Shown here: positions 757 to 55,337 of the stretch, piece by piece
How positions within the stretch are numbered: the stretch's first letter is position 1
How the letters are laid out: every line of letters starts with the position of its first letter
Origin: a virus
Strand: one strand, 5' to 3'
Length of the DNA: 56,213 nucleotides
Virus record (IMG/VR): IMGVR_UViG_3300044980_000094
Location: 1-56,213 of that record
Translations under genes and position numbers: made by a program
Notes under the pieces: model-generated
What the model saw: only the letters and a program-made list of their open reading frames with translations
The model's database searches: none
What the model was told of the DNA's origin: nothing

Positions 757-1035
757 ATGTGGCCTAATCCAATGACCAACCACAAGCCTGCCAGTCCGAC
801 CAAAATTCTTTTTTGCGAGACTTACGAGCGGCATTTGCGCCGCTTATGGGCTTGGACTCGGGATGCCAACAAACTAGCCGAGTTCATGCGCAGCGTTGAG
901 CAGACTCTAGACGGCGGCAATACCTGGAGTCGCAGCGGTGAAGCTTATGACGCCACACTGGCCGAATTGGGCCTCCCCAAAAAGACAAGTCTCAAAGCCC
1001 TGCAATCGATGCCAGTTGGGGAGCCTGCTCAATGA
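757..1035 (+). CDS. Hypothetical protein
   Basis: 92 aa, not recognised. It is mostly helical and charged (region ERHLRRLWAW.RDANKLAEFMRSVEQTLD), with no signal peptide or membrane segment. No Shine-Dalgarno precedes ATG 757; an in-frame ATG at 772 is an alternative start. The stop overlaps the next start as ATGA (1032-1035), so it is translationally coupled to the following gene. Confidence 0.6.
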   Translation: MWPNPMTNHKPASPTKILFCETYERHLRRLWAWTRDANKLAEFMRSVEQTLDGGNTWSRSGEAYDATLAELGLPKKTSLKALQSMPVGEPAQ

Positions 1036-1430
1036 CCAAATCCCTCAAACTCGCCCGCCCGCCCGGCCCCTTCCTGGTCCTAGTCCTCGACCCCGACGGC
1101 CGTCTGGCAATCCAAGGCGCCAACGGCAAGTCGATTCCGCTTCGCGACTTCAACCCGCGCCAGACCCTCGAGGCACGGCTTGCCAGCCAAGCCCAGACCG
1201 CCAAGACCATATCGGCCATAGCAGCCCAGGCTCCCCAGCCAAAGGCTCCAGCCCCCAAGCCAAAGCCCCTAGCCAAGACCGCGCCGCCACTGACCTCTTG
1301 GCGTAGCCTGGGCGGCGGGATACAGGTAAGGCAAATTCCCCCAGGGCTGTCCGGAAAGCAATTCGCGGCCCTGATGCCAGCGGCAATGCCGCTGCCCATG
1401 CCAGTTAACTCCTCCCAGATTGACTTCTAA
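1032..1430 (+). CDS. Hypothetical protein with C-terminal QIDF tail
   Basis: 132 aa. An N-terminal beta-rich segment (FLVLVLDPDGRLAIQG) is followed by an Ala/Pro/Lys-rich linker (about residues 65-90) and a C-terminal region ending in Gln-Ile-Asp-Phe. The terminal hydrophobic-Asp-Phe is shared with five other proteins of this genome (1999, 10632, 14256, 16492, 54672), which suggests a docking peptide for a common partner. The function is not recognised. Start by ATGA overlap with the upstream gene. Confidence 0.65.
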   Translation: MTKSLKLARPPGPFLVLVLDPDGRLAIQGANGKSIPLRDFNPRQTLEARLASQAQTAKTISAIAAQAPQPKAPAPKPKPLAKTAPPLTSWRSLGGGIQVRQIPPGLSGKQFAALMPAAMPLPMPVNSSQIDF

Positions 1431-1453
1431 CCAACTCCCCCGGAGCCCCTGTG

Positions 1454-1651
1454 ATGCCCAAGCCCCAATTCCCCCTCGCGCCCAAATTCCGCCTATCCCA
1501 GAACCTCGACGGGTCCGAGTCCTTCGAGTTCGAGGTCATCGACCCGAACGACGAGCCCATATGGGCGAGCCTAATCGGCCTAACAGGGCTCTGCCTTGGC
1601 GGGATATTCATCGGCTGCTTGGCGGCGTTTATGGTCATTTGGCTAGCCTAG
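1454..1651 (+). CDS. Small membrane protein
   Basis: 65 aa. The N-terminal half is polar and acidic (FEFEVIDPNDEP), and the C-terminal half is one hydrophobic span (LIGLTGLCLGGIFIGCLAAF), so a single-pass inner-membrane protein with its N-terminus in the cytoplasm is likely. GGAG at 1442-1445 sits eight bases before ATG 1454; a GTG at 1451 is an alternative. The function is not recognised. Confidence 0.6.
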   Translation: MPKPQFPLAPKFRLSQNLDGSESFEFEVIDPNDEPIWASLIGLTGLCLGGIFIGCLAAFMVIWLA

Positions 1652-1697
1652 CAGCCAGCCCATTCATGCTAGCCCATATGTCCTTCGGAGCCCAACA

Positions 1698-2012
1698 ATG
1701 CACATTTCCCAACTCCTAATCTCCATCGAGCAGGCCAACTGCGAACTAACGGTCATGAGATTCTCCGAGCCCTTCATGCGTCCGAACATATGGGATGTCG
1801 TGCTGCGCTACACGGACGGCAACGGCACCAAGATCGAAACGCACAAAAAAGGGGAGGTATTCGTGGAGGCCCTCGAGGCAGCCTGGGCTGCATTTTCGAT
1901 CTTGGCCAAAAATGGCCTCCCAGCTGGGGCACTATTGGCGCCAATCGAGCCATGCGGCCAATCCTGCCAGCCCAGCCTGCCGACCTTTGCCACCTGCTAT
2001 GACTCCCGGTGA
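1698..2012 (+). CDS. Hypothetical protein
   Basis: 104 aa, not recognised. It has the look of a small alpha/beta protein (IWDVVLRYTDGNG.KIETHKKGEVFVEALEAAW). There are two cysteines near the C-terminus. GGAG at 1687-1690 lies seven bases before ATG. The 3' end overlaps the next gene by 14 bases. Confidence 0.6.
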   Translation: MHISQLLISIEQANCELTVMRFSEPFMRPNIWDVVLRYTDGNGTKIETHKKGEVFVEALEAAWAAFSILAKNGLPAGALLAPIEPCGQSCQPSLPTFATCYDSR

Positions 2013-2229
2013 ACAGCAGGCCAAGAGCCTGATCTACAGTCCCAAGGGCTGCTGGCTGATCGCGACCGACTACGGAACCTGGGGCGCGTTCGACTATGCC
2101 CGGAAATGGCTGGGGGAATTAGACAGCCCCGAGGCGATTGTGAAAATGCTGGCCCAAGCCAAAGCTGCCAGCCCAGCGGCCAGCCCAGCGGCCAAGGCTG
2201 CCATATCTGCCGGCGAAATCGACTTCTAG
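1999..2229 (+). CDS. Small protein with C-terminal EIDF tail
   Basis: 76 aa. A compact N-terminal region (residues 1-45; LIYSPKGCWLIATDYGTWGAFDYARKWL in two adjoining parts) is followed by an Ala/Ser/Pro repeat linker encoded by near-tandem GCCAGCCCAGCG units, and ends Gly-Glu-Ile-Asp-Phe. The tail matches the hydrophobic-Asp-Phe ending of five other proteins here. The ATG at 1999 gives a 14-base overlap with the previous gene; the longer upstream reading frame would read far into that gene and is less likely. Confidence 0.6.
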   Translation: MTPGEQQAKSLIYSPKGCWLIATDYGTWGAFDYARKWLGELDSPEAIVKMLAQAKAASPAASPAAKAAISAGEIDF

Positions 2230-2257
2230 GACACTTCTAAACCAAAAGGATTACCCA

Positions 2258-2347
2258 ATGCTTGTCGTTGCGACTGTAATCGGAGCTTTGCTGCTGCTGG
2301 CCCTGCTTGCCGGCCCGAGGGGCCACAGGGGCCACAGAGGCCACTAA
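2258..2347 (+). CDS. 29-residue membrane peptide with Gly-His repeats
   Basis: A short gene with an AAAGGA Shine-Dalgarno seven bases before ATG. The product is one hydrophobic helix (residues 2-18, AT..IGALLLLALLAG) followed by a GHRGHRGH tail. The DNA of the tail is a tandem GGCCACAGG repeat. It is a likely single-pass membrane microprotein of unknown role. Confidence 0.5.
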   Translation: MLVVATVIGALLLLALLAGPRGHRGHRGH

Positions 2348-2381
2348 GGGGCCATTTGCAACTCCAGGAGTCTAACCCACA

Positions 2382-3947: not shown

Positions 3948-4183
3948 GCGAGCACGGCAGAACACAGGCAGAGCACGACGCCGCCGTGATGCAGATGCGC
4001 AGCGTTATCGAACGCGAGCAGCCTGAAACCGCCGCGCTGCGCTCCCAGCTCGCCAGCCGCGACGCCGAGATTGACGCGCTATGCCGGGTCATCAAGGCTT
4101 ACACGGGGGTCCTGATCAAGACCTGCGCGCTGGTGAACGCTCTCGAGGAGGAACTCGCCAGGTTAAGAAGTCCCGCATCGTGA
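3944..4183 (+). CDS. Coiled-coil protein
   Basis: 79 aa. Almost wholly helical with heptad-like spacing (VIEREQPETAALRSQLASRDAEIDAL) and a Leu-rich C-terminus, so an oligomerising coiled coil is likely. ATGA overlaps on both sides place it in an operon with the small membrane and exported proteins around it. The function is not recognised. Confidence 0.5.
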   Translation: MSEHGRTQAEHDAAVMQMRSVIEREQPETAALRSQLASRDAEIDALCRVIKAYTGVLIKTCALVNALEEELARLRSPAS

Positions 4184-4446
4184 GTCGCCCCGTCATCCTG
4201 ATCATCGGAGCCTTGCTCGGCATTGCGACGGCGGGCGCGGACGAATACCTGCAACGCAATAATGACCAGTCGTTACGGGATCGTCCGCTCCCGATTTGCG
4301 CTCTCTCTCTGTTCTCCGACGGAAAAACAGTGCTGATCGATTTCCGCAGTCCAGCGGTTACCTATAGCGGAGAGTTTCCAGTCGATGACGCAGCGCGGGT
4401 GCTTTTCGAAAGCGTTGAATTACTACGTGAGGAACAGTGCAAATGA
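4180..4446 (+). CDS. Small exported protein, paralogue 1
   Basis: 88 aa starting at GTG 4180 (GTGA overlap). The N-terminus (ILIIGALLGIATAGA) is a signal peptide or anchor. The C-terminal 50 residues align with the next gene: LSL..DGKT..I.F....V...G..PVDDAA..FFES (with LF for FF here)..LR...C. The pair arose by tandem duplication. A periplasmic location is likely; the role is unknown. Confidence 0.55.
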   Translation: MSRPVILIIGALLGIATAGADEYLQRNNDQSLRDRPLPICALSLFSDGKTVLIDFRSPAVTYSGEFPVDDAARVLFESVELLREEQCK

Positions 4447-4742
4447 TCTCCCGCATATTTATCCTTAGCCTCCTAGTCGTCGTCGCGCCGGCGGCACAGG
4501 CAGACGAACGCCTGCCATCTGGGCAGCCGTTCCAACTGTTGAACCCGCAGGATAACCAAGCAATCATAGGTATTTTGCAGCCAATGTGCACGCTCTCGCT
4601 AAACGCAGACGGAAAGACAGCATCGATCAATTTCTGCGGCACGAAAGTCACGTTCACCGGTGATTTGCCAGTCGATGACGCGGCGAAGATGTTTTTCGAA
4701 AGCGTGGGAGCCCTGCGCCAGCCGGGGTGCGGGAAGCCATGA
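4443..4742 (+). CDS. Small exported protein, paralogue 2
   Basis: 99 aa with a clear signal peptide (MISRIFILSLLVVVAPAAQA, cleavage after AQA). The mature part shares the DGKT and PVDDAA.. motifs and the final Cys with the preceding gene. Three cysteines in the mature part could form a disulphide in the periplasm. ATGA overlaps on both sides. Possibly a host-envelope modifier; no homologous function recognised. Confidence 0.6.
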   Translation: MISRIFILSLLVVVAPAAQADERLPSGQPFQLLNPQDNQAIIGILQPMCTLSLNADGKTASINFCGTKVTFTGDLPVDDAAKMFFESVGALRQPGCGKP

Positions 4743-9562: not shown

Positions 9563-10063
9563 ATGCCCCGCACAATGCCCCTTACGATCTCATTCTACGA
9601 GTTCTCAATCTCAAAACCCTACCACGAGGGCTTTGCGATCTCGCAGGCCGAGGCGCAGATATTGAACACCGCAAAGCGAGACGCCCTGGCGGCCCAAGGG
9701 GCCAAAGAACTGGCCAAAATGCGCCCTCAGGGCGAGCAGGGGCTGTTGAGCAGCCAACAGCTTGAGGCCCTGACACTTTTGATTGCGGACCTGGACATGC
9801 AATTCGCATTCAAATTGCGTCCAAATCCGCGCCCGCGCAGTGGGACACTGAATCAGGAAATCCAACTCGTGGCTATGGAACGCGTCGAGGCCGAGGCGAG
9901 GAAATTAGGGCTTAAGCTCAGCTCGCAGCAGTTCGAGGCCGCAGTGCAGGAATGGCGCGCCGATGGGGCGATCATTGGCGAGGCTAGGAGGAGATTCGAG
10001 GAAAGGCTCAAAATCAACACCATGCCTTTGAGTGAACTCTTTGGAGAGCAGCCCGGTGGCTGA
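9563..10063 (+). CDS. Hypothetical replication-block protein
   Basis: 166 aa, helical, with a basic FKLRPNPRPRSGT segment in the middle and a Glu-rich helix (VAMERVEAEARKL). Not recognised. It lies just behind a promoter, with an in-frame ATG at 9575 as alternative start. Its stop overlaps the next gene by eight bases. Confidence 0.6.
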   Translation: MPRTMPLTISFYEFSISKPYHEGFAISQAEAQILNTAKRDALAAQGAKELAKMRPQGEQGLLSSQQLEALTLLIADLDMQFAFKLRPNPRPRSGTLNQEIQLVAMERVEAEARKLGLKLSSQQFEAAVQEWRADGAIIGEARRRFEERLKINTMPLSELFGEQPGG

Positions 10064-10373: not shown

Positions 10374-10635
10374 GCGAACCGAGAAGCCAACTGTCGCCAG
10401 GCATTTGAAACTCTATGAAGAGGACTGGCTGTTTCTGTGTGAGCATTATGGGCCAGATAGTCCGACCAAATACGGCCCAGGGGCTGTGGTAAGAGAATTG
10501 CTCCATGCGCGGATTAAGGCCATTAAGGCGACAATGACTCGGGCCGTTGAGCACTCACAGGTCGAGGACCAAGCCCAAGTGAGCGAGCAACTGATTGCCA
10601 AGATGGAAGCCCAGGCACGGGGGCAGCAGCCATGA
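10366..10635 (+). CDS. Hypothetical small protein, possible ribbon-helix-helix
   Basis: 89 aa. Residues 8-50 (V.RHLKLYEEDWLFL... then VVRELLHARIKAI) could form a beta strand plus two helices as in Arc-type DNA-binding proteins; this is weak. The C-terminal 35 residues are a Gln/Glu-rich helix. Overlaps its neighbours by eight and four bases. Confidence 0.5.
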   Translation: MSKRTEKPTVARHLKLYEEDWLFLCEHYGPDSPTKYGPGAVVRELLHARIKAIKATMTRAVEHSQVEDQAQVSEQLIAKMEAQARGQQP

Positions 10636-10904
10636 GCGACCTAAAGGGCCAAATTCCCCAGTCGAATGCACTTAGCGAGGCCACTCCAGAGTCACTAAGT
10701 GAACTATTTGCGACTAACCCAGAGCAACTCGATCCAAGGACCGAGGCTGGAGCAGTGAGACTAAAACGCATGGTCGAGGCCCTGAGGAAAATGTATGGGG
10801 CCTGGGCGCTGAGCGAGCAACAGGCCAAGCTGCCCAAGGCCAAGGCCAAGCCACCAGCTGCGAAACTCAGCGCCCCCGTCAGCAGTGAAGGGCTGGACTT
10901 CTAA
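10632..10904 (+). CDS. Small protein with C-terminal GLDF tail
   Basis: 90 aa. Helical core (ESLSELFATNPEQLDPRTEAGAVRLKRMVEALRKM in adjoining parts), then an Ala/Lys/Pro linker and the ending Gly-Leu-Asp-Phe. The tail is one of six hydrophobic-Asp-Phe endings in this genome. Its gene overlaps the nuclease gene by one base (TAATG), so the two are translated together. Possibly a recombination or replication adaptor. Confidence 0.6.
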   Translation: MSDLKGQIPQSNALSEATPESLSELFATNPEQLDPRTEAGAVRLKRMVEALRKMYGAWALSEQQAKLPKAKAKPPAAKLSAPVSSEGLDF

Positions 10905-11909: not shown

Positions 11910-12791
11910 ATGCCAACCTTTGAGACCTATTCGGAATCTCCCAGCCCAATCAAGATGATCTATATGGGCCACAGCGGAGCTGGCAAGACTGGCTCCTTAG
12001 CCAGCCTGGCCGCTACAGGATATAATGTCAGGATTCTTAATCTGGAGAAAGGAATCGAGATCCTAGCCGGATATGCCCGCGATCCTCGGAGTCCGTATCT
12101 GAAGGCCAACCCTGGGCATTGGAGCGCAGAGCAAGCCAAGGGCTTGGCCGGACGGATTTCCTACGTGACCATCGATGAGCCTGTGCATGTTATTAAGAGC
12201 CCCAAAGGGGCGGAACTGATTCCCAAGGGCGAAATGTGGGGCAAAGTTAGCGAGCAATTGAATGACTGGAAAGACGGCGCCAGCAGTTTGGGCAACATCG
12301 ACACCTGGACCGGCAATGACGTGTTAGTCATTGATTCATTGACCCGGCTCTCGCAGGCAGCGTTTAATTTCCAGCTCAAACTTGGCGGCAGGCTTAACGG
12401 CAGGCCAGAGCAGGCCGACTACGGGCTGGCTCAAAGGAGCCTATTAAGGCTCTTGGAATTATTCTATTCCGACAGTGTGAAGTGCAACATTGTTATTATC
12501 TGTCATATCAAATATATCGAAACCGAGGCAGGACCAACGCGGGGCTTCCCGGAGACAATCGGGAATGCCATTAGCCCTAAGGTCGGGCAGTATTTCAACC
12601 ATGCCCTGCTGGCCAAGTCCTCCGGCAGCGGTGAGGCGACTAAGAGAGTCATTTTGACCAATACCTCTGGGATGATCGAGCTGAAATCCGCAGCGCCATT
12701 GCAGGTCAAGGCGGAATATGACCTGAGCACGGGATTAGCTGATTATTTTAGAGATGTAAAGGGGGGCTATCCGAATCGTGCGAGGGAATAG
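11910..12791 (+). CDS. RecA/Sak4-like recombination ATPase
   Basis: 293 aa. Walker A GHSGAGKT at residues 20-27 and Walker B-type DVLVIDSLTR near residue 140 lie in a RecA-fold layout, with a later IVIICH segment in the sensor position. Proteins of this type (Sak4/AAA_24) promote single-strand annealing with help from a phage SSB. A nuclease gene lies just upstream and a candidate SSB gene downstream, which supports this. GGAG 16 bases upstream is far from ATG 11910, but no other start fits better. Confidence 0.75.
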   Translation: MPTFETYSESPSPIKMIYMGHSGAGKTGSLASLAATGYNVRILNLEKGIEILAGYARDPRSPYLKANPGHWSAEQAKGLAGRISYVTIDEPVHVIKSPKGAELIPKGEMWGKVSEQLNDWKDGASSLGNIDTWTGNDVLVIDSLTRLSQAAFNFQLKLGGRLNGRPEQADYGLAQRSLLRLLELFYSDSVKCNIVIICHIKYIETEAGPTRGFPETIGNAISPKVGQYFNHALLAKSSGSGEATKRVILTNTSGMIELKSAAPLQVKAEYDLSTGLADYFRDVKGGYPNRARE

Positions 12792-13538: not shown

Positions 13539-13976
13539 ATGGTCGATTTTTCAGCAATGCTACAGAAATCCCCCGAGGCCCTTCCGAAGCCGCCAGCCTT
13601 GCCTGTCGGCAACTATGGCGGGACGATTATTCGATACGAGTTCGGGGACAAGAACAAAAACAACACCCCATACTGTCGGGTGTTTGTCAAACTCCACACC
13701 TGGCCGGACGAAGTCCCCGAGGATGAGCGGGCCGGACGCGGCAGCCTCGGCCAATTGAGCCGAGACTACTATCTCCGTGATAAGGACGGCGGAGATGGGA
13801 TCCAGTGGATGCTGGCGGAATTGCTGCGCAGCTGTGGCCTCAGTGGCCGCCCGATGGAGGAACTGATCCCGGAACTCAACGGTAAAGAGGTCATTGCCGG
13901 GGTCAAGCAGTATATCAACGAGAAGACCTCTGAGATCGGCAACGACATCTCTAGGCTCACGGGTCAAGGAGGCTAG
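13539..13976 (+). CDS. Candidate single-stranded DNA-binding protein
   Basis: 145 aa. The sequence MVDFS..L....LPVGNYGGTIIRYEFGD.....PYCRVFVKL, followed later by RDYYLRD and a helical RSCGL segment, resembles phage SSB-like proteins that accompany UDG-type family A polymerases. No acidic DDIPF-type tail is present at its C-terminus. It lies downstream of the nuclease and ATPase, where an SSB would complete the recombination set. Recognition is from memory of the type, not from a search. Confidence 0.55.
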   Translation: MVDFSAMLQKSPEALPKPPALPVGNYGGTIIRYEFGDKNKNNTPYCRVFVKLHTWPDEVPEDERAGRGSLGQLSRDYYLRDKDGGDGIQWMLAELLRSCGLSGRPMEELIPELNGKEVIAGVKQYINEKTSEIGNDISRLTGQGG

Positions 13977-14255: not shown

Positions 14256-15767
14256 ATGCCAATCCAAAATACATATCAGCGCGTTCCTCTTGAACAAATC
14301 GCCATTGCGCGAGATGCGCGGCAGAGGCGAGACATTGCCCTGGACGCGAACTTTGTCGGTTCGATCAAGAGGCATGGTGTGCTGGTGCCGATAATTGTGG
14401 GGCCAAATAGCGAGGCAGCAATCAGCAGTAGCGCGGGCGTGGTCCTGCCGTGGCTGCTGATTGCTGGCGAGCGCAGGCTCGAGGCCTCGCGTCAATGTGG
14501 CTTTGCGGACATTCCTGTGCGATTCGCCTCGGAATTGACTCTAGTCGAGCGCCAGCTCTTCGAGCTCGAGGAAAACGTCAAGAGACGCGAACTGCGCTGG
14601 CAGGATGTTTGCCTCTCTGTGGCTAGGATCCATTCCCTACAGCGAGGGCTGGACCCCGACTGGCAGCGAGCCCAGACCGCCGAGTTTTGCGCCATTGATC
14701 CCAGCGCAGTCACGCATTATCTGACAATCTTCGAGGCTTGGGACGACCCGTCCGTCCAAGCCGCTGGGACATATCGGGAGGCATACAATCTGCTGCTGCG
14801 CCGAACCCAACGAGCACAAGGAGTGGCGTTGCAAGAATTGCTGGACTGGACCGAGCCCCAGCAACAGCCAGCCAGCAACAGCCAGCCAGTAGCGATGCCA
14901 GCAGCAATGGCCAGCAGCGAAGCCGCTTCGACAGAAGCACCAGTCGAGAGTGGATTACCAAGAACTGCGACCGGCCCTAGTCCCAGCCCTACTGCCACTG
15001 CTCCCAGCTCCCCGATTCTCTGCCTCGACGCCGTTGAGTGGATGAAGACATACAGTGGCCCCAAATTCAATCTTCTCCACTGCGACTTCCCTTATGGAAT
15101 CGGCCTGTTCAATTCCAACGGAATCCGCTCTGGTCCACAAAGGAGCCAAATGGGCCGAGATTCTTCCTCCAGCGAAGGTTACGAGGACGAGCCAGAGTAT
15201 TTCCAACTCCTTGTCGAAACCCTGGCAGCGAATCTTAATCGATTCTTTTCAATTCAGGGCCATATCATGTTCTGGTTCTCGAACAAATGGGAGATCGAGG
15301 CACGGGTGCGTGCCAAGTTTGCCGAGTTGGCCCCGAGCATTTCGTGGAGTCGATTTCCACTGATCTGGCTCAAATCTGATAACGCTGGAATAGCCGCGAG
15401 TCCGCAATATGAGCCGAGACATATTTACGAGACCTGCCTGCTGGGCTCGCAAGGCAAAAGGCCGATTGTGCGGATCGTCAGCGATGCATACAGCGCGCCA
15501 ACGGACAAGTCCATCCATGTGAGCGCCAAACCGGAGCCGATGCTAAGGCATTTCATGACGATGCTAGTTGACGAGTCCACCTCGCTGCTCGATCCAACCT
15601 GCGGCAGCGGAACGGCCCTTCGAGCAGCGGAATCCTTGGGCGCTTCTCGCATCTTGGGCTTGGAGAAAGACCCCCAGATGGCCGAACAGGCACGACGGGC
15701 ACTCGAACTTGAGCGCGCAAAGCGCCGGGCTGCGAAGACCCTCCGATCGGCCCCGCTGGATTTCTAG
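14256..15767 (+). CDS. ParB-like nuclease domain fused to a DNA methyltransferase
   Basis: 503 aa. Residues 5-160 are ParB-like, with the GERRLEAS box at 71-78. A Gln/Pro/Ala/Ser linker spans about 195-250. The C-terminal half is an amino-methyltransferase: motif IV as DFPY (277-280) and the SAM-binding motif I as LLDPTCGSG (444-452), in the order IV then I of the beta class. It should methylate adenine-N6 or cytosine-N4 in phage DNA, probably against host restriction. The tail ends Pro-Leu-Asp-Phe, one of six such endings here. ParB-methyltransferase fusions are known in phages. Confidence 0.85.
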   Translation: MPIQNTYQRVPLEQIAIARDARQRRDIALDANFVGSIKRHGVLVPIIVGPNSEAAISSSAGVVLPWLLIAGERRLEASRQCGFADIPVRFASELTLVERQLFELEENVKRRELRWQDVCLSVARIHSLQRGLDPDWQRAQTAEFCAIDPSAVTHYLTIFEAWDDPSVQAAGTYREAYNLLLRRTQRAQGVALQELLDWTEPQQQPASNSQPVAMPAAMASSEAASTEAPVESGLPRTATGPSPSPTATAPSSPILCLDAVEWMKTYSGPKFNLLHCDFPYGIGLFNSNGIRSGPQRSQMGRDSSSSEGYEDEPEYFQLLVETLAANLNRFFSIQGHIMFWFSNKWEIEARVRAKFAELAPSISWSRFPLIWLKSDNAGIAASPQYEPRHIYETCLLGSQGKRPIVRIVSDAYSAPTDKSIHVSAKPEPMLRHFMTMLVDESTSLLDPTCGSGTALRAAESLGASRILGLEKDPQMAEQARRALELERAKRRAAKTLRSAPLDF

Positions 15768-15769: not shown

Positions 15770-16495
15770 ATGCCAGCAGGCTCCATCGTAGCCCTATTCG
15801 ACATGACTGGATATTCGGTCCGCGATTGGGCACTCGTAGGCGAGACCTGTTATTGTCTCGATATGTATAACGACGGCAGACAGGAGCAATTCCCATCCGG
15901 TGGCTCAATTACATACCTATATTGGGAGGCCTTGGACCCAACGGCCCTAGGCCAGATCGCAGCCCTCAAACCCAAGTTCCTGTTCGCATTCCCGCCTTGC
16001 ACGGACTTGGCCGTGAGCGGTGCTGCACATTTTGAGTCCAAACGAGCAGAGAATCCGAGCTTCCAAGACGAGGCCCTCTATTTGGCTTTAATTGCGCCGA
16101 GCCTCGGCAAGCGTCTGGGGATTCCGTGGTTTGTGGAGAACCCAGTCGGGACGCTCTCCACCCTATGGGGCAAACCGGATCATATTTTTGAGCCTTGGGA
16201 GTTCGGAGGCTACCTGCCAGCCAGCGACACGCATCCAAAATGGCCAGAATACATCGAGGCCCGCGATGCGTATCCCAAGACGACCTGCATTTGGAGCGGA
16301 AATGGTCTCAAATGGCCCGAGCGCAGACCAGTAGAGCAGACCTGCATAGTGAGCAAGAATGGAAAGAAATGGAGTAAACAACAGGCCAATCTCGGGGGCA
16401 AGAGTTTGAGGACGAAACAGATCCGCTCAGCGACTCCGAGGGGATTCGCAAGGGCGATTTTCGAGGCCAACTATGCCAGCCAGCAGCCAAGATGA
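15770..16495 (+). CDS. Cytosine-C5 methyltransferase-like protein
   Basis: 241 aa. FPPCTDLAVSGA (74-85) carries the Pro-Cys catalytic motif of C5-cytosine methyltransferases (Cys77), and VENPVG (122-127) corresponds to the ENV motif. The SAM-binding N-terminus is short (VALFDMTGY). This short phage type is related to Dcm enzymes but lacks a clear target-recognition domain, so activity is uncertain; it may modify cytosine or a nucleotide. It lies between another methyltransferase and the polymerase genes. Confidence 0.7.
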   Translation: MPAGSIVALFDMTGYSVRDWALVGETCYCLDMYNDGRQEQFPSGGSITYLYWEALDPTALGQIAALKPKFLFAFPPCTDLAVSGAAHFESKRAENPSFQDEALYLALIAPSLGKRLGIPWFVENPVGTLSTLWGKPDHIFEPWEFGGYLPASDTHPKWPEYIEARDAYPKTTCIWSGNGLKWPERRPVEQTCIVSKNGKKWSKQQANLGGKSLRTKQIRSATPRGFARAIFEANYASQQPR

Positions 16496-16551
16496 CCGTG
16501 ACAGCCAGCAACCCAACCTTCGCCCTGCGCGGCCAAGCGATGGACTTCTGA
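16492..16551 (+). CDS. 19-residue peptide ending MDF, coupled to the polymerase gene
   Basis: The frame runs from an ATG overlapping the methyltransferase stop (ATGA, 16492-16495) to a TGA overlapping the polymerase start (TGATG, 16549-16553). The product ends Gln-Ala-Met-Asp-Phe, the same hydrophobic-Asp-Phe ending found on five longer proteins here. Exact overlaps on both sides and the shared ending argue that it is a real microprotein or at least a translational coupler for the polymerase. Nothing else is known. Confidence 0.5.
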   Translation: MTVTASNPTFALRGQAMDF

Positions 16552-17735
16552 TGACCCAGCCAACAAGTCAGCCAGCAGGCCAGCTGGCCGTCCATAGAGC
16601 CTTATCCCCATTTACCGCCCTGAGTGGCCCCTATGACGCCAAGATATTACTCGTCGGCGAAGCCTGGGGCGAAACTGAGGCCGAGTTCGGCCGTCCATTC
16701 GCCGGGGCTAGTGGGCGAGAACTATTCTCGATGTTGAGCGAAGCCACAGGGCATGAGCCAGCCTTGGCTTCTCATTGCCTTGCCGCGCATGGATATGAGT
16801 GGCTGAGGCGAAGAGAGCAGTGGCTGGCCGAGGCCAGCATCGCCATGACCAACGTGCTTGCCCTGAGGCCACAAGGCAACAATTTGGCCTCGCTCTGCAG
16901 GACTAAACCAGAACTCAAATCCCGGGGCCTTGTCCCCGACCGGCCCGAGATCATCCCAGGCAAATATCTGCACCCCAGATACCAGCCCGAACTGGATAGA
17001 CTCCAAGCCGAAATTGCTGCCATTAAGCCCAACATTGTGGTTGCACTGGGTAATACTGCCTGCTGGGCTTTAGCCAATCGAACCAATATCGGCAGCATTC
17101 GTGGAGCTATCAGCCCAAGCCTGTATGGCCCTAAACTTTTGCCGACCTATCATCCTGCGGCCATGATGCGCGTCTGGTCTTGGCGGCCGATCATAATCGC
17201 CGATCTAATCAAAGCCTGGCGTGAGTCAAAGTGGCCGGAAATCCGCCGCCCCGAGCGGGAGATACTAACTAGCCCCACGATTGAAGAGGTAGAGGCTTGG
17301 ACTGCTAGGACATTGGCGAAGCCGCCAAGGTTGCTGGCCAATGACATCGAAACCGCCCGAGGCTTTATCACAATGATGAGCTTCGCCGCAAGCCCCCAGG
17401 ACGGAATCGTCATTCCATTTGCAAGCCTGCAGGCCCCAAATGGCTGCTATTGGCCGACACAAGCCCAAGAGGAGCGGGCCTGGGCTTGCATATGCGCCCT
17501 GCTCAGTAGCCCAATTCCCAAACTCTACCAGAATGGCATGTATGATTTGCAATACGAGGCTTGGCGCATGCGTCTGCCGGTTCGCAATGTGGCTGAGGAC
17601 TCTATGCTGCTGCATCATAGTATCATGCCGGAAATGCTTAAGGGCTTAGGTTTTTTGGGCAGCATTTATAGCCAAGAACCGGCCTGGAAACTAATGCGGC
17701 TACACAAGGCCGACACGGATAAACGAGACGAGTAA
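16551..17735 (+). CDS. DNA polymerase A fragment 1: UDG-like plus partial 3'-5' exonuclease
   Basis: 394 aa. Residues 32-205 are a uracil-DNA-glycosylase-fold domain (GEAWGETEAEFGRPFAG, 36-52; HPA, 201-203), as in phage SPO1-type polymerases. Residues 255-394 begin a 3'-5' exonuclease: Exo I as DIE (265-267) and Exo II as N328..D332. The reading frame stops after KRDE, before Exo III. Exo III (YCGLD) and the polymerase domain lie in the separate gene at 18124, so the two products must assemble to make a working exonuclease. Confidence 0.85.
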   Translation: MTQPTSQPAGQLAVHRALSPFTALSGPYDAKILLVGEAWGETEAEFGRPFAGASGRELFSMLSEATGHEPALASHCLAAHGYEWLRRREQWLAEASIAMTNVLALRPQGNNLASLCRTKPELKSRGLVPDRPEIIPGKYLHPRYQPELDRLQAEIAAIKPNIVVALGNTACWALANRTNIGSIRGAISPSLYGPKLLPTYHPAAMMRVWSWRPIIIADLIKAWRESKWPEIRRPEREILTSPTIEEVEAWTARTLAKPPRLLANDIETARGFITMMSFAASPQDGIVIPFASLQAPNGCYWPTQAQEERAWACICALLSSPIPKLYQNGMYDLQYEAWRMRLPVRNVAEDSMLLHHSIMPEMLKGLGFLGSIYSQEPAWKLMRLHKADTDKRDE

Positions 17736-17761: not shown

Positions 17762-18124
17762 ATGTTCTCATATCTTGCTAGTCCGTATTCACACGAGGCT
17801 AAATCTGTCCGCGAGGATCGATTCAGGGCTGTCGAATGTGCTTGGGTCTGGCTAATGCGCCAGCAAAAATGGACCTATTCTCCGATCGTCCATGCGCATG
17901 CAGCCGCAAAGCAATACGAGATGCCGACAGATTTTGCCTTTTGGCGCGCATACAACGAGGCCATGCTAGCCAGCAGCCATGGCCTGATTGTGCTGACCTT
18001 GCCCGGCTGGCAAGACTCCAAGGGTGTCACGGCAGAGATTGAATTTGCGCTCGCACGCAAATTGCCCATCGACTACCTTGCCGCGCAGGGCTGGGGCAAA
18101 TTCTCTTGGACCGGACAATTCTAA
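17762..18124 (+). CDS. DUF1937 (nucleoside deoxyribosyltransferase-like) protein
   Basis: 120 aa. It begins MFSYLASPYSH and shows the family pattern RF.AV..A...LM...W..SPI.H.H, F...YNEAML, L.LPGW..S.GV.AEI.FA. DUF1937 is related to nucleoside 2-deoxyribosyltransferases and is common in phages; it may act on nucleotide pools or be a sensor of nucleotides. GGAG seven bases before ATG gives it its own ribosome site. It sits precisely between the two polymerase halves and overlaps the second by one base (TAATG). Confidence 0.8.
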   Translation: MFSYLASPYSHEAKSVREDRFRAVECAWVWLMRQQKWTYSPIVHAHAAAKQYEMPTDFAFWRAYNEAMLASSHGLIVLTLPGWQDSKGVTAEIEFALARKLPIDYLAAQGWGKFSWTGQF

Positions 18125-19668
18125 TGCCCATTGTCAAAACTCATGAGCTAACAACCCATACCCCGCTGGCCCAATTCGACTCCGACCAAATCTACTGCGG
18201 ACTCGACTCTTGTCTTACATTAGAAATCTTCGAGTCCATCCAGACAATCTATGGCGCTAGCGGAGTCCCTCAGGACTGGCGGGGCATTTATTCCTTCGAG
18301 CGTGCCTTGCAGGCGCCATACTATGACCTCATGACTCGGGGCTTTCGCGTCGATGGCTGGGCGAGGCAGGAAGCCATCCAGTCCCTGCGAGAACGTATCT
18401 GCACTATCCAACAGGTGCTGGACCAGCTATCCACAGCGACGCAGGGCAGCCCGGTTAATCCACGTAGCCAGAAGCAGTTGCAGTATCTGTTCTACACCGT
18501 ATTGGCGCTGCCGGAATTGTGGATCAGCATCAAGGGCGAACGCAAGCTCTCAATGGGCCGGGAAGTGCTGGAAAAACTCCACGAGCGATATTTATATTCC
18601 AGGCCATTTGTGAACTGCATCCTGACCATTCGCGATCTCGCGAAGCAATTGGAGGTATTCGAGTCCAAAATTGACTCAGATGGCCGATTCAGAGCGAGCT
18701 ATAACATCGCCGGGACTGAAACTGGTCGGCCATCGTCGAGCGAAAATGCATTCGGCACTGGCCGCAATGCCCAGAATATCGCACCCAATTTGCGTCACGT
18801 CTTTGTGGCGGACCCGGAGCATGTTCTAGTTGTTGTTGACCTCGAGCAGGTGGAGGCCCGTGATGTCGGATTCTTTTGTGGGTGCCTTTTCGGTGAGTGG
18901 GGATTTCTTGACGCCTGCGAATCTGGCGACCTTCACACGAATAATGCTAAGAGAATTTGGCCCGAGCTTGGCTGGACCGGAGATCGAAAGGCTGATAAAA
19001 AAATTGCAGAACAGAACTTCTACAGGGATTTCAGCTACCGAGACATGGCAAAACGAGGAAGCCATTTGTCGAATTACATGGGGACGGCCTGGACCGCTGC
19101 TAGGTCGCTCAAGTTGCCACTTGCGATTATGGAGGATTTCCAGGCTCGCTACTGTCGAGGCGACCCCAAGCGTGGGATCGAGCCCGCGTATCCGTGCATT
19201 CCCCGCTGGTGGCGCTGGGTCGCAGAGCAACTCCAGACTACTCGCCAGCTCGTGACCCCGTTTGGCCGCCGCAGACACTTTTTCGGACGCCCCGGTGACG
19301 ATACCACACTGCGAGAGGCCATTGCGTTTCTGCCCCAGAGCACGACGGCGGATCGGATGAATCTTGGCCTATGGCGGGTCTGGCGTCACGAGCCCCGAGC
19401 CCAATTACTGGCTCAAACCTATGACTCGATTACTTTTCAGGTCAGCCAAGATGACAATATCGAGGACTGTATTGGGAATGTATTGCACCTGCTCGGGGTG
19501 GAACTGTTTGGGCCAGCGCCGGATTATCGCCACTACGTCGTGCCTGGGGAGGCCAAATGGGGCTGGAACTGGGGGCCACAGAGCGAGCACAATCCCGATG
19601 GGCTGAGGAAATGGTCTCCGAGCCAACTCCTGCCGGCTCGAGCTAACGGCATGCAGAGAATGGTCTAG
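18124..19668 (+). CDS. DNA polymerase A fragment 2: Exo III motif plus polymerase domain
   Basis: 514 aa. Exo III is YCGLD (Tyr24, Asp28), followed by LTLEI. The polymerase domain has GTETGRPSSSENAFG and QNIAP, motif A VVVDLEQVEARD, motif B SHLSNYMGTAW with upstream KRG, and motif C as YDS where most relatives have HDE or HDS. The metal-binding aspartates of motifs A and C are present, so polymerase activity is expected. It needs the upstream fragment for proofreading. The start overlaps the DUF1937 stop. Confidence 0.85.
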   Translation: MPIVKTHELTTHTPLAQFDSDQIYCGLDSCLTLEIFESIQTIYGASGVPQDWRGIYSFERALQAPYYDLMTRGFRVDGWARQEAIQSLRERICTIQQVLDQLSTATQGSPVNPRSQKQLQYLFYTVLALPELWISIKGERKLSMGREVLEKLHERYLYSRPFVNCILTIRDLAKQLEVFESKIDSDGRFRASYNIAGTETGRPSSSENAFGTGRNAQNIAPNLRHVFVADPEHVLVVVDLEQVEARDVGFFCGCLFGEWGFLDACESGDLHTNNAKRIWPELGWTGDRKADKKIAEQNFYRDFSYRDMAKRGSHLSNYMGTAWTAARSLKLPLAIMEDFQARYCRGDPKRGIEPAYPCIPRWWRWVAEQLQTTRQLVTPFGRRRHFFGRPGDDTTLREAIAFLPQSTTADRMNLGLWRVWRHEPRAQLLAQTYDSITFQVSQDDNIEDCIGNVLHLLGVELFGPAPDYRHYVVPGEAKWGWNWGPQSEHNPDGLRKWSPSQLLPARANGMQRMV

Positions 19669-19730: not shown

Positions 19731-20972
19731 GTGGAGCCCCCACAGCCAGTCCGTTCCTCAACCCCGCTGCCAGAAGATTTCATATCTGATTTCTTCTCCT
19801 ACACAGCAGACGTGCGTTCGCCCGAGCTGTTCCGCACCTGGACGGCCATTACGATCGTCGGGGCAGCCCTCGAGCGCAGGGTCTGGGTCCGCACAGGCCC
19901 ATACGCGACGTTTCCGAATATGTTTACTCTGCTCGTGGCCCCACCCGGCACAGGCAAGAAAGTTATCGAAAAAGCCTCGGAGCTACTGGGCGAAACCCTT
20001 CGGCCGGACACGAAAATCAAGGCTTTCCATGTGGCCCCGCAGTCTATCACCAAAGCTGCCCTCATTGACACTCTCAAGGACTCCAAGCAGACCACCCTTA
20101 CTCGGCAGGGCAAGACTTTCGTCTACCATGCCCTGTTTATTGGCGCCGAGGAGTTCTCGGTCCTATTGCCCAGCCACGACCCGGAGTATGAAGGAGTCCT
20201 AAACTCGCTCTGGAACAACAGCGCACTGTTTCATGAACGTCGCCGACATGGAGATCGAAAGGAAACCCTAATCGAGTTCCCGATTCTCAACATGCTCGCA
20301 GGAGTCCAGCCGAGTTTCTTGAGCCAATTGCCGCCGGAGACTTGGGCCTCGGGGCTAAGCCGCAGATTCATTATGATCTACAGCGCCGAGCAGCGCATTC
20401 GCGATCCATTCCTAGTCACAGTGGATGAGGAAGAATTGAAAGAAAAAATGCTAGCCAAGTTACGCAAGATGTCTGACCTGCAGGGTCAGATCACCTGGAG
20501 CCCAGAGGCACAAAGCACATTCACGGCCTGGGTCATGGGCGGCAGTCCGCCGAGGCCGATACATTCCAAACTCACAGCCTATGTATCGAATCGGGAAATG
20601 AATGTGATGAAACTGGCCGGAATCAGTGCAGTCAGCCGAGGCCAGATGCAAATCGCGGCCGTTGACCTGGCTCGGGCCATGGAATGGCTACTCAACGCCG
20701 AAACCATAATGCCGGACATATTCCGGGCCATGATCTCCAAGAGCGACCAAGACATCATCGATGAACTGTATTTGGCCGTTAGCTCGCTATGGAAAATCTC
20801 CAACGGCAAGCCTGTCGACGGGGCCTTTGTCTGGCATTTTGTCTCCAGCCGAACCACAAGCGACAAGGTGGAGAAGATTATCAATCTGGCGGACAAAATG
20901 CAAGCTGTGGTGAGAATCGCGGGGACGGAGAATTTCAAACCCATGCCCAGGTGGCAGATTAAGATGGAGTAA
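19731..20972 (+). CDS. DUF3987-type P-loop ATPase, possible primase/helicase-associated
   Basis: 413 aa from GTG 19731 (GGAG five bases before); ATG 19698 would add 11 residues without a ribosome site. Walker A is APPGTGKK (70-77) and an acidic IGAEEFSVLL segment fits Walker B. Similar proteins (DUF3987) occur in phage and mobile-element primase/helicase contexts. A C-terminal region (IIDELYLAVSSLWK onwards) looks like a winged helix. With no separate replicative helicase or primase recognised, this is the best candidate for the fork helicase, by inference. Confidence 0.65.
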   Translation: MEPPQPVRSSTPLPEDFISDFFSYTADVRSPELFRTWTAITIVGAALERRVWVRTGPYATFPNMFTLLVAPPGTGKKVIEKASELLGETLRPDTKIKAFHVAPQSITKAALIDTLKDSKQTTLTRQGKTFVYHALFIGAEEFSVLLPSHDPEYEGVLNSLWNNSALFHERRRHGDRKETLIEFPILNMLAGVQPSFLSQLPPETWASGLSRRFIMIYSAEQRIRDPFLVTVDEEELKEKMLAKLRKMSDLQGQITWSPEAQSTFTAWVMGGSPPRPIHSKLTAYVSNREMNVMKLAGISAVSRGQMQIAAVDLARAMEWLLNAETIMPDIFRAMISKSDQDIIDELYLAVSSLWKISNGKPVDGAFVWHFVSSRTTSDKVEKIINLADKMQAVVRIAGTENFKPMPRWQIKME

Positions 20973-21114
20973 ATCTGATGCTAATTGAAGTCAGAAAAAG
21001 CCCCACAGGCGGCAATGCTGACGATATATCCTGCCATGATTCCACCGGGCACAAACTACGCAACGATGCAACGATTGCCGAAGAAGGGCGACCAAATAAG
21101 AATGGAGTAAGCAA

Positions 21115-21252
21115 ATGCAAATGCAGTGGTATCCAACGAAAAGCAATTGGTATAAGATCAGCTGTTCGCGGCAATATAGTACGCAGGCCGTGGTCGTTTA
21201 TACGTTGTCGATCTTTGGCCTGCAGCTTAGGTGGTATGGGGGAAGGCGTTGA
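21115..21252 (+). CDS. 45-residue aromatic-rich small protein
   Basis: GGAG seven bases before ATG (21104-21107). The product is rich in Trp/Tyr and basic residues (QWYPTKSNWYKISCSRQYST, ending LRWYGGRR). It is preferred over a 128-codon frame at 20978..21364 that lacks a ribosome site. Two tiny frames follow with stop-start overlaps (21252..21302 and 21299..21364), and one of 31 codons precedes (21015..21110); these three are too weak to call. The function is unknown. Confidence 0.5.
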   Translation: MQMQWYPTKSNWYKISCSRQYSTQAVVVYTLSIFGLQLRWYGGRR

Positions 21253-21392
21253 TGGCGAAGCCGTGCAATGTCTTCGAATGTATGGGGTGTTATGTCCCAT
21301 GACGGACCTAATCGGTCCTTTCCTTGCCACTAAGAACGTGGCCCCGCCACGCTACCACACTTGATTTTGCCAATCGTGTCCAAGGAGCTCCC

Positions 21393-21653
21393 ATGCAGCA
21401 CAAAGCCGATCCCTCTGCACTATCCAGCATCTTCTCCATCCCCAGCCTTTACGTCGATGGCTGCTTAGTCATCGGCAACGGAACGCCAATTTTGCGCCTT
21501 GTCTTCTGGGAGCAATTTGTTAATCCCAACGGGACCGAGATGCGGCCCAGAGTCGCCATCTCGATGCTAGATACCAACGCACGAGCCCTGATAAATGCCC
21601 TAGAGACATTCCTCAACGACACAGCAAGCAGTCAGCCCATTAGGAGACAATGA
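21393..21653 (+). CDS. Hypothetical protein, DUF3467-like by eye
   Basis: 86 aa. AAGGAG five bases before ATG. Layout: a strand region (PILRLVFWEQF) then PRVAISMLDTNARALINALETFL, which recalls DUF3467 proteins (short beta proteins that end with a helix after a T-x-x-A-x-x-L pattern). The match is weak. Overlaps the next gene by four bases. Confidence 0.55.
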   Translation: MQHKADPSALSSIFSIPSLYVDGCLVIGNGTPILRLVFWEQFVNPNGTEMRPRVAISMLDTNARALINALETFLNDTASSQPIRRQ

Positions 21654-32345: not shown

Positions 32346-33569
32346 TCACAGCTGGTCCGCTACCACGCAAGCCCATTCTGGCCTAACCCAGAGATAGCCA
32401 TATAGAATATCCAGTCGAGTTGCCATCTGGTCCGTCGCAATAATGTATTGCGTAACCATGCGCATTGAGCAGCCATCGAATTCCTCCCTCGCCCCCTCGT
32501 GGATACCCATCGGGATTTCCATATCTGCGATAGCCATCGTGACTGCCTCAGGCGCATAGGCGAAGTTCTTCCTATACACACTGCCCGCCGCGAGCCCGTT
32601 GGTCGGATTAACCGCAGCGCCATTGGCGGGACTTGCTGTCACGGTCTGGTACTGCACCGGCTGTCCGCCCTGCGGCGGCACAATGGCGGGGTAAATCGGA
32701 ATACTCGTCGCATTCGCGGCCACATTGGCTGTGACTGCGAACTGTTCCAGCTCTCCCGTCGATTGCTTGGTGATTCGGTTGACCTTGAACACCCCAGCGA
32801 TGGTGATAATATCGCCTTGAATAAGGCTTCCTGCAAGGGCATTGACGGCCAGATTGAGCCCAGTCTGGTTCGCCCCAGCGACAGTTGCGCTGCCCTGGGC
32901 CAAAGTGCCATTCGTGTGGACAATAGCAGTCTGGTCGGACATCCAGAGAAACTGCAAAGCGTCATACATCTTTCCAGTTACGAATTGGCGCGAGATCTCA
33001 GCATTCGGGTTGAGCAGACCACTTAGGCTCGCAACAACTCGAGCCTGTGTCCTTGGCCCATTGACAATCTTGCGATTGGCAATCGGAGCCGAGTTGAGAT
33101 CCAAACTCGCCCCAGCATTGAGATACGTCCCTGCAACAGGACTGAGTATGTTGCCATTCGCGTCCTGATTGGCTACGAAGTTGCAGATACCGCCCTCGGC
33201 CCCAGACATGATATTGATAGCCACGGCTCCGGCCAGGCTATTGACCATCGGCGCCAGCACGCGGCGAGAGTAATCATCGAGGCTCATAGTCCGATCGACA
33301 GTCGTGAATGACACATCGACATGCTGCTGAGTAGCCAGTGTGAGCGTTGTGGACTGTTCGATAGTGTCTTGGACACTCAGCGCTGGCCCAGTCACGACCG
33401 TATAGTCGTTGGGCAGACGGATTCTGATCGCCGTGCCAGCCTTGGCCCCGCCGACTGCAAATGAATCATCATACTGCATATCGACATTCTGCATGAATGC
33501 GTTCGAGTTCTTCCACAATCTGACAGCTTCCCGCGTGATCAGATTGAGGGTAAGGATAGAATTAGCCAT
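32346..33569 (-). CDS. P22-like major capsid (coat) protein
   Basis: 407 aa; P22 coat is 430 aa. It begins ANSILTLNLITREAVRLWKN, has the segment TTLTLATQQHVDVSFTTVDR and ends in a region with WVRPEWACVVADQL, all typical of P22-like coat proteins with the HK97 fold. Start ATG 33569 with GGAG six bases upstream. The gene directly upstream encodes the scaffold. Confidence 0.8.
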   Translation of the reverse strand: MANSILTLNLITREAVRLWKNSNAFMQNVDMQYDDSFAVGGAKAGTAIRIRLPNDYTVVTGPALSVQDTIEQSTTLTLATQQHVDVSFTTVDRTMSLDDYSRRVLAPMVNSLAGAVAINIMSGAEGGICNFVANQDANGNILSPVAGTYLNAGASLDLNSAPIANRKIVNGPRTQARVVASLSGLLNPNAEISRQFVTGKMYDALQFLWMSDQTAIVHTNGTLAQGSATVAGANQTGLNLAVNALAGSLIQGDIITIAGVFKVNRITKQSTGELEQFAVTANVAANATSIPIYPAIVPPQGGQPVQYQTVTASPANGAAVNPTNGLAAGSVYRKNFAYAPEAVTMAIADMEIPMGIHEGAREEFDGCSMRMVTQYIIATDQMATRLDILYGYLWVRPEWACVVADQL

Positions 33570-53706: not shown

Positions 53707-53734
53707 TTTGGGCTCCTCTTTGATCGATGATCCG

Positions 53735-53967: not shown

Positions 53968-53991
53968 AAAAGGGGCGCATTGCTGCGCCCC
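53968..53991 (-). terminator. Rho-independent terminator
   Basis: On the minus strand GGGGCGCA and TGCGCCCC form an 8-bp GC stem with a 4-base loop, followed by TTTT (53971-53968). It lies 29 bases after the stop of 54020..54232 and before promoter A, so each small gene is its own transcription unit. Confidence 0.75.
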
Positions 53992-54019
53992 GATCCGATC
54001 CGTTGCTAGCTTGGGCGCG

Positions 54020-54232
54020 CTAGTCAATCATAATCGAGTCGATCAATTCAATCAACTCGCTAAATGCTTGCGCGCGTCCGGTTTGTATCTTGCCCTGTTG
54101 CACCGTGGCTGCGCGTAGTTGCAACGATATAGACTCGTCGCGCTTGCCCCATGCCCATTTGCGAATGTCGTCTTTAAATTGTTCAGCGGCTTGCAATGGG
54201 GTTAAATTGCCGAGTCGGAATGTGATCTGCAT
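54020..54232 (-). CDS. Small early protein
   Basis: 70 aa. A mixed alpha/beta start (QITFRLGNLTPLQAAEQF) followed by a helical C-terminus (AQAFSELIELIDSIM). GAGGAG eight bases before ATG. Flanked by its own promoter (54262-54290) and terminator (53968-53991). Function unknown; short genes in such units are often early host-takeover genes, by inference. Confidence 0.65.
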   Translation of the reverse strand: MQITFRLGNLTPLQAAEQFKDDIRKWAWGKRDESISLQLRAATVQQGKIQTGRAQAFSELIELIDSIMID

Positions 54233-54261
54233 GACCTGGGCTCCTCTTTGTTGACAATCCG

Positions 54262-54290
54262 ACCCTAGCTCACGCTTCGGCCCGTGTCAA
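54262..54290 (-). promoter_or_regulatory. Sigma70-like promoter B
   Basis: On the minus strand: TTGACA (54290-54285), 17-base spacer, TAGGGT (54267-54262). Spacer and upstream GTCGATTTATG are identical to promoter A. Confidence 0.75.
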
Positions 54291-54307
54291 CATAAATCGA
54301 CCCAGCA

Positions 54308-54565
54308 TCACGAATAGTCTGGTTGCGAGCTTTCGGGCGCGAGGATCAGGTCTGATGGCGGACAATTGCATTCGGCAATCCGCTGATATTGGCCATCAAT
54401 CATAACCGTGTCACGATACGGCCAATTACTGCCGTCATTTGCCAATTCGCCATTGAAGAATATGTTGCGCGCACCGTTATACCCGCGCCCCTCCGTGTAA
54501 GCGATGCTCTTACAGTTCCAACGGAGATTTGAATGATGCTTACACGTAAGATGAATGTGATTCAT
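54308..54565 (-). CDS. Small early protein with Cys/His cluster
   Basis: 85 aa. N-terminal HIHLTCKHHSNLRWNCKS and C-terminal CNCPPSD hold five His and four Cys that could bind zinc; the middle has an aromatic/Asn-rich stretch. GAGGAG eight bases before ATG, promoter C upstream. Function unknown. Confidence 0.65.
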   Translation of the reverse strand: MNHIHLTCKHHSNLRWNCKSIAYTEGRGYNGARNIFFNGELANDGSNWPYRDTVMIDGQYQRIAECNCPPSDLILAPESSQPDYS

Positions 54566-54595
54566 GACCTGAGCTCCTCTTTAATTGCCAATCCA

Positions 54596-54624
54596 ATACT
54601 ATCTCAAGCCTCGGGCCATGTCAA
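54596..54624 (-). promoter_or_regulatory. Sigma70-like promoter C
   Basis: On the minus strand: TTGACA (54624-54619), 17-base spacer, TAGTAT (54601-54596), the best -10 box of the group. It overlaps a perfect 12-bp inverted repeat (54611-54644) around the -35, which could be an operator. Confidence 0.75.
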
Positions 54625-54644
54625 CACAAATCGACATGGCCCGA
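54611..54644. promoter_or_regulatory. Operator-like 12-bp inverted repeat over promoter C
   Basis: TCGGGCCATGTC and GACATGGCCCGA flank the 10 bases AACACAAATC; the arms are perfect. The inner GTC...GAC with AACAyAAATC is conserved at promoters A and B, where the outer arms are decayed. A dimeric repressor bound here would block the -35 element. No repressor gene is recognised. Confidence 0.5.
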
Positions 54645-54671
54645 AGGAATTATTTGGAGTCGACGTTGGGA

Positions 54672-55337
54672 TCAGAAATCCACCCCACCCGCCTTGGCAG
54701 CCTGCTCGGCCAACTTCTGGCTTTCTCGCGCCTTACGGTCAAGGGTGGCCTGGGCCGACTTGCGGAGCTCGGCGTCGAACTTGGTCATATAGCCCTCGAT
54801 GAACGAACTCCACGTGCGGGTCGTGCCATTGTCGAGGGTGAAGACATAGTCCGGCTTCGGAAAAGCCGTGCCGTTCTTGCCCCAGGCACCGGTAACGCCA
54901 CTCGCGACCAGCCGCGCCTTGACCTTGTTCCGAGCCTCGAGGGCCATTTCGGCCTCGAGCGGGCTAAGCCTCGGCCCACGCTCGCCGCCATCGCCCAACG
55001 TGCCGGCGAAGATTTCGGCCAAAAACTCGGCCCGGACGGCTTCGCACTTGGCGGCGAACTCAGGGCTCTTCGAGAACTTGTTCTCCCGAAGCCGGGTTCG
55101 GATCGCGTCCTCGGCGGCCTTGCGGGCCTCTTTGACCGGCACTGGGTCCATGGCGTTGATGGCCTCCCGGACGACGTCGCTCGTGACGGCGCTCGAGGTC
55201 TCACTGCCGTGGATATGGGTAGCGCCACGATTGATGAGGGCCACGATCGAGGCCAAGGGGGTGTCGGCGATCTTGAACGCGTTGCCGCCCCAATTCCACG
55301 TGGCCGAGGCGATATTGGTATTGTCGGTATCGGACAT
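54672..55337 (-). CDS. Hypothetical early protein with C-terminal VDF tail
   Basis: 221 aa. The N-terminus (IASATWNWGGNAFKI and LASIVALINRGATHIHG) is of a type I have seen in phage proteins of unknown role. The middle is helical and charged; a beta segment (DYVFTLDNGTTRTWS) precedes a Lys-rich helix and the end Gly-Gly-Val-Asp-Phe. The ending matches five other proteins here. First gene of the minus arm, with its own promoter (55382-55410) and GGAG eight bases before ATG. Confidence 0.65.
   Translation of the reverse strand: MSDTDNTNIASATWNWGGNAFKIADTPLASIVALINRGATHIHGSETSSAVTSDVVREAINAMDPVPVKEARKAAEDAIRTRLRENKFSKSPEFAAKCEAVRAEFLAEIFAGTLGDGGERGPRLSPLEAEMALEARNKVKARLVASGVTGAWGKNGTAFPKPDYVFTLDNGTTRTWSSFIEGYMTKFDAELRKSAQATLDRKARESQKLAEQAAKAGGVDF

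Follow-up and report, generated by a model that had tools for sequence, protein, structure and literature searches.

Tip residues that differ between phages and agree within each point to a C-terminal docking code on unrelated phage proteins

Why would unrelated proteins encoded by a single phage end in the same few residues? The question is raised by IMG/VR record IMGVR_UViG_3300044980_000094, a 56,213-base record of an uncultured virus (the whole of this stretch is called the window here), in which several genes end in a hydrophobic residue followed by Asp-Phe. The original prediction, made from the window alone, read these endings as a docking tag for a common partner such as the split DNA polymerase. 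In the window and in related phages (designated below by G and L numbers), tip letters that differ between phages and agree within each point to an undescribed docking code for a common partner. The open literature that we searched contained no description of such a tip system; one may exist elsewhere.

Unrelated genes of the window share an ending

Endings of the form [ILMV]DF (QIDF, EIDF, GLDF, PLDF, and GVDF) close five mutually unrelated genes with good coding statistics. These carriers, and one possible further tip, are as follows:

1032..1430, + strand: tail carrier 1, ending ...VNSSQIDF; a distant family 40 member (profile match, 89% probability)
1999..2229, + strand: tail carrier 2, 76 amino acids, in an open frame from 1795, ending ...AAISAGEIDF; an orphan for which no relative was found
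10632..10904, + strand: tail carrier 3, family 2, with a conserved head, an Ala/Pro/Lys linker, and the tip EGLDF; directly upstream of the Cas4-like exonuclease gene
14256..15767, + strand: tail carrier 4, a ParB-N and N6/N4 DNA methyltransferase fusion (Pfam and PHROG matches), ending SAPLDF
54672..55337, - strand: tail carrier 5, family 29, ending AKAGGVDF
16492..16551, + strand: possible sixth tip AMDF, on a 19-codon frame MTVTASNPTFALRGQAMDF or on a -1-frame extension of the upstream methyltransferase

Six carriers had been predicted; five were found where expected, whereas the AMDF frame is not an ordinary gene. It overlaps at each end (ATGA ... TGATG), its ATG with the stop codon of the Dcm-like methyltransferase gene (15770-16495) and its own stop codon with a possible start of the gene that follows, and it forms a direct -1-frame continuation of the methyltransferase, whose homologues align to residue 234 of 241. 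The AMDF end (window 16440-16570) may be a programmed frameshift tail, a leader peptide, an assembly indel, or chance.

As had been predicted, few such endings are expected by chance: the C-terminal composition of related phages gives 0.028 in the 84 genes used for the calculation (P[≥5] = 1.3e-10). When the rate observed among the relatives' other genes is used, a rate itself inflated by further tip carriers, P is 2.4e-6. Across all six frames of the window, seven [ILMV]DF-stop sites were seen versus 0.53 in Markov simulations. Chance similarity, selected after looking, gains some credit from the choice of the motif after inspection. However, of all endings that follow an [ILMV] residue in the window, DF ranks first (look-elsewhere P ≤ 0.0005), enrichment beyond the shuffled expectation recurs in relatives, and phages examined later (L067, L188, L180, L085, and G003) agree too; we regard chance as a negligible explanation.

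The window's tips use differing synonymous codons and all three stop codons, and no nucleotide homology was seen among unrelated carriers' tips in the last 36 bases. The codon differences indicate selection on the protein, so that neither copied DNA nor a nucleotide signal accounts for the tips. The claim that the carriers are unrelated was borne out as well: profile comparison of the heads linked none of the tail families tested except 1032-1430 with family 40 and family 29 with family 5. The latter link is a remote homology (94% probability), with window members 54672-55337 and 9575-10063. In family 5, many members have an acidic-hydrophobic tail resembling LEELL.

These results bear on shared descent of the tip without a common function, whether by recent DNA copying among genes or by paralogy. 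Agreement of tip flavours within a phage and the kinship of families 29 and 5 would fit such an origin, but the differing codons, the dissimilar last 36 bases, the unrelated heads, and the persistence of tips while linkers randomise make it very improbable.

The window's ending is one form of a wider tip

A single-protein search with 54672-55337 and a megablast search with the first 25 kb retrieved no relatives. Relatives were recovered through alignments of the family A polymerase (PolA), the exonuclease, and the helicase, with PolA and the exonuclease giving about 90 viral loci. The gene set comprised the window and 35 related uncultured phages, mostly whole or nearly whole contigs, with 2180 called genes.

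In this set, LGL is the commonest C-terminal tripeptide and DLGL the commonest tetrapeptide, and [ILMV][GD][LF] closes 76 of the 2180 called genes (3.5%) versus 38 of 11,963 other open reading frames (0.32%). The look-elsewhere test found tip enrichment in many relatives also. Gene calls of the control phages HK620, T7, and PaP2 contained no repeated hydrophobic-x-hydrophobic ending of comparable kind. The group-wide consensus is [LA]-[ED]-D-[LIM]-[GD]-[LIF]-COOH, with Asp or Glu conserved at position -4 and common at -5 and Asp common at -2. The window's tails are rich in Ala, Pro, Ser, and Lys and have no long acidic run before the Phe; the predicted lack of acidic residues therefore describes the window and not the wider family, in which E/D-D precedes the last three residues.

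Family 2, the best-sampled family, adjoins the exonuclease gene in 26/33 genomes and has a conserved head (SLxELFSRDP...), an Ala/Pro/Lys linker without conservation, and a tip, [LA]-[ED]-D-L-[GD]-[LIF], that is again conserved. The linker columns have an entropy of about 3 bits each, the last four residues 1.6-1.7 bits. Tails that are conserved while linkers vary, the pattern looked for in the original prediction, are thus seen in this family. Because its conserved tip admits both Gly and Asp before a final Leu, Ile, or Phe, the xDF ending is not the general motif: the window's LDF/xDF is one lineage's flavour of a wider, mostly DLGL tip.

About eight non-homologous families, together with orphans, carry the tip. 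It is widespread in families 2, 34 (11/11), 40, 29, 60, and 89 and sporadic on the ParB-methyltransferase, family 20, and many orphans. Members of family 40 end in DLGI, EELGL, DLDL, EIDL, ELNF, or a near-terminal MDFDEDFF, and those of family 29 in LDL, LGL, VDL, DLGL, and others. In G003, of the same phage type as G001, the homologue of 54672-55337 (37% identity) ends ADIDF; this retained IDF and the sharing of tips by unrelated proteins in further relatives lend good support to the docking-tag reading. The ParB-methyltransferase has a tip in few relatives (SLGL in G008, ELGL in G033 and L035), indicating that the tip was gained and lost there. Relatives that keep a protein and lack its tail, which would speak against a docking tag, were accordingly found for some carriers only.

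Family 2 and the other tail carriers had no useful match in Pfam, PHROG, or the PDB, a PADLOC search of the carriers returned only generic methyltransferase matches, and the family 2 member searched against a cultured phage collection had no match.

Some relatives with xGL or xDL tips also encode a second class of ends (DDEIPF, DEIPF, DDEMPF, and NEIPF), on unrelated proteins, which resembles the tip of bacterial single-stranded DNA-binding protein (SSB). These SSB-like ends are located at:

L125:17075-17422 (G014)
L042:301-726 (G024)
G026:40645-41862
G004:23080-23430
G007:5678-5980

Since both classes coexist in G004, G014, G024, and G026, they look like separate codes. A small gene ending HLEF occurs in three phages whose tips are otherwise DIGL (G034:44434-44619, G036:53345-53533, and G037:21563-21748) and may be unrelated to the tip system. 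Distant relatives, namely Caulobacter phage Kuura, MW202489, and Microcystis phage Mel-JY34, have longer analogous ends on several proteins (SIDDLLSTL, NIDDLFSE, and ALLAGLE among them), which are suggestive only; the loci noted for Kuura, MW202489, are L176:39440-40105 and 33048-33374 and L177:18809-19357 and 20875-21405.

Tip letters agree within a phage

Tips end in F in the window and in G001 (one of the latter being ELNF) and in DF or EF in G028. Elsewhere the ends are DL (G019), DIGL (G034, G036, and G037), DLGI (G005), mostly EELGL (G006), or TIEDLGL (G024), and G011 bears the longer VMDFEEDFF and VMDFDEDFF on two families. When the terminal residue was classed as F or as L/I/M/V, the class was the same in 47/47 cross-family pairs within a phage (P < 0.001). 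Similarity of the last six residues within a phage was 18.1 versus 11.1 when tips were shuffled among genomes within each family (P = 0.0002).

Because shared descent alone could yield such agreement, each tip was also compared with a different family's tip from the same phage or from the nearest PolA relative. Same-phage tips were more alike (17.9 versus 13.4; 51 wins, 19 losses; Wilcoxon P = 1.9e-6), the pairs being not fully independent. Phages outside the permutation and nearest-relative tests agree too, with DVEF and EIEF in L067, DMEF and EIEF in L188, ELGL three times in L180, and ELLV and DLLV in L085.

A docking model and its alternatives

We consider it probable that the endings are C-terminal docking tips for one shared hub. 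This reading builds on the tips themselves, which stay conserved beside free linkers, occur in unrelated families, agree within a phage, and are under selection at the protein level; from these observations we infer binding, a single hub, and a phage-encoded hub that is a core replication or recombination protein. In the proposed model, accessory early or DNA-metabolism proteins would each have a head followed by a linker of Ala/Pro/Lys/Ser, probably disordered, and would end in a short motif, [ED]-D-[LIM]-[GD]-[LIF]-COOH across the group and [ILV]-D-F in the window phage. The tips would bind one hub of the replication or recombination machinery and so tether the accessory proteins, as the SSB tip and the tails of T7 gp2.5 and gp4 do. 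As the hub pocket drifted from one lineage to another, every tip of a phage would follow it.

Several points weigh against this model. Some carriers lose the tip, and in family 29 of G011, G016, and G034 it is not exactly terminal; residues after the motif in a few phages imply that a free carboxylate is not essential everywhere. Within each of G014, G026, and G008, position -2 is D in some tips and G in others, and L033 ends DLGF without the signature found in the DUF3987 protein of F-tip phages (see below). Shared descent inflates within-phage agreement, for which the nearest-relative comparison controls in part. The motif classes were picked after the first relatives had been inspected, the genes were called with our own simple caller, and the contigs are metagenomic.

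The receptor might instead belong to the host, its sliding clamp or an SSB partner being examples. It is common for phage proteins to take over host replisomes, the tip is similar to the C-terminal SSB tip (SSB-Ct), and differing hosts could give agreement within a phage. However, the pockets in which hosts receive SSB-Ct and clamp motifs are strongly conserved, the tips have no Gln-Leu-x-Leu-Phe clamp signature, and classical DDEIPF-like ends occur alongside xGL or xDL tips in the four phages named above; host docking thus appears unlikely. Host differences could likewise explain the flavours if the tip, on its disordered linker, were a C-terminal degron that marks early proteins for a host protease such as ClpXP and gives them a short life. 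Known degrons are similarly disordered, C-terminal, and hydrophobic-ended, and many carriers lie in the early/replication region. Yet the ssrA-type degron is a non-polar LAA end without acidic residues, whereas acidic residues are conserved here beside the hydrophobic ones, and host proteases vary little, so phage-specific flavours would not be expected. We judge a degron distinctly improbable.

The replication module and candidate hubs

If the docking-tip reading holds, a core enzyme is the natural hub, since it is accessory proteins that bear the tips and most of the core enzymes that are always present have none. The window's replication module comprises a helicase, the Cas4-like exonuclease, Sak4, DUF669, the ParB-methyltransferase, a uracil-DNA-glycosylase (UDG)/exonuclease protein, the family A polymerase, and a DUF3987 primase/helicase. 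Four of its members are:

11910..12791, + strand: Sak4-like recombinase (PHROG match), candidate hub by analogy with HK620
13539..13976, + strand: DUF669 OB-fold, SSB-like protein; 5/31 family members match PF05037
18124..19668, + strand: family A DNA polymerase domain (PF00476), candidate hub by analogy with T7
19731..20972, + strand: DUF3987 primase/helicase-like protein (PF13148; PHROG DNA primase), candidate hub by weak covariation

The polymerase is indeed split: its polymerase domain has a gene of its own (18124-19668), and the upstream gene 16473-17735 joins a uracil-DNA-glycosylase domain to a DNA polymerase PHROG stretch.

We searched about 15 families for alignment columns that separate F-tip phages from the others, in comparison with matched random triples. 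Only the DUF3987 protein exceeded the triples, with 5 F-tip-specific columns versus 0.39 expected (P = 0.013, uncorrected, from only two independent F lineages that have this gene), a value that is not significant after correction because about 15 families were tested. After realignment, four columns (K97, I254, N291, and L386) were left, common to the two F-tip lineages and rare elsewhere, on backgrounds about 35% identical. The same residues occur in L067 and L004, but these are close relatives of G028 and G001. PolA, Sak4, the UDG protein, and the helicase had 0 columns tracking F-type tips, the PolA test being of low power; nothing points to the split polymerase, the partner that the original prediction had suggested.

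Of the other proteins named at the outset, SSB and the sliding clamp, neither a classical SSB (PF00436) nor a bacterial sliding clamp was found in the 19 genomes searched. The SSB-like DUF669 protein has a predicted OB fold (AlphaFold2 mean predicted local distance difference test score, 93) and stops at its last strand, and no member of its family in the window's group has a C-terminal tip. Its best PDB match is PrgE of plasmid pCF10 (E = 4e-5).

Elsewhere in the window, the adjacent small genes 4180-4446 and 4443-4742 have the C-terminal ends PVDDAARVLFESVELLRE and PVDDAAKMFFESVGALRQ, from which they look like tandem paralogues.

Comparison with known systems

The arrangement shares features with several systems and matches none. 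Like SSB-Ct (DDDIPF), which recruits DNA-metabolism proteins, the tips follow a variable linker and combine acidic residues with a hydrophobic-small-hydrophobic C-terminal end. In contrast, SSB bears one tip on one protein for many partners, whereas here the tip is found on many proteins but not on the SSB-like DUF669 protein. Most of the tips close with LGL or LDF instead of IPF; an acidic stretch followed by Ile/Leu-Pro-Phe is not the rule, as the tips run from acidic residues into [LIM]-[GD]-[LIF] and DDEIPF-like ends occur only on few other proteins.

Bacterial sliding-clamp binding motifs, with the consensus QLxLF, are similarly short, hydrophobic, often C-terminal, and common to unrelated proteins that use one hub. 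The tips differ from them in having no conserved Gln and another spacing, and no bacterial-type clamp gene was found in the 19 genomes searched.

In T7, gp2.5 ends DEDGDF and gp4 ends SNDTDF (read from NC_001604), so that there, as in the window, unrelated proteins of one phage (gp2.5 and gp4, and five in the window) end in x-Asp-Phe. The gp4 tail is in contact with the family A polymerase (PMC8472574), and a title cited in PMC9917605 indicates that the C-terminal Phe of gp2.5 matters for polymerase function. The T7 tails, however, have long acidic runs and belong to core enzymes; the tips described here are short, are found mainly on small accessory proteins, and are missing from the core enzymes. 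In HK620, the gene for a DUF669 SSB adjoins sak4, and recruitment of Sak4 to single-stranded DNA depends on the six C-terminal residues of the SSB, NDYPPF (PMC5928155). The present phages likewise have a DUF669 SSB and Sak4 in one module, but the DUF669 protein ends at its last strand and the tips are found on other proteins.

Implications for phage genomes

A more specific version of the docking model, which we advance tentatively, is a genome-specific C-terminal postcode: one hub with a drifting pocket, perhaps the DUF3987 primase/helicase, would be served by a changing collection of unrelated small proteins, orphans in many cases, which gain or lose matching tips. The tip function would have passed from the phage SSB to these accessory proteins.

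Much of a phage genome encodes small, unknown early proteins that homology cannot annotate. The shared tip groups about eight families and many orphans into one functional set, such that three to six residues would predict which orphan proteins work together. If true, this would be a case of non-homologous proteins whose docking code evolves in concert.

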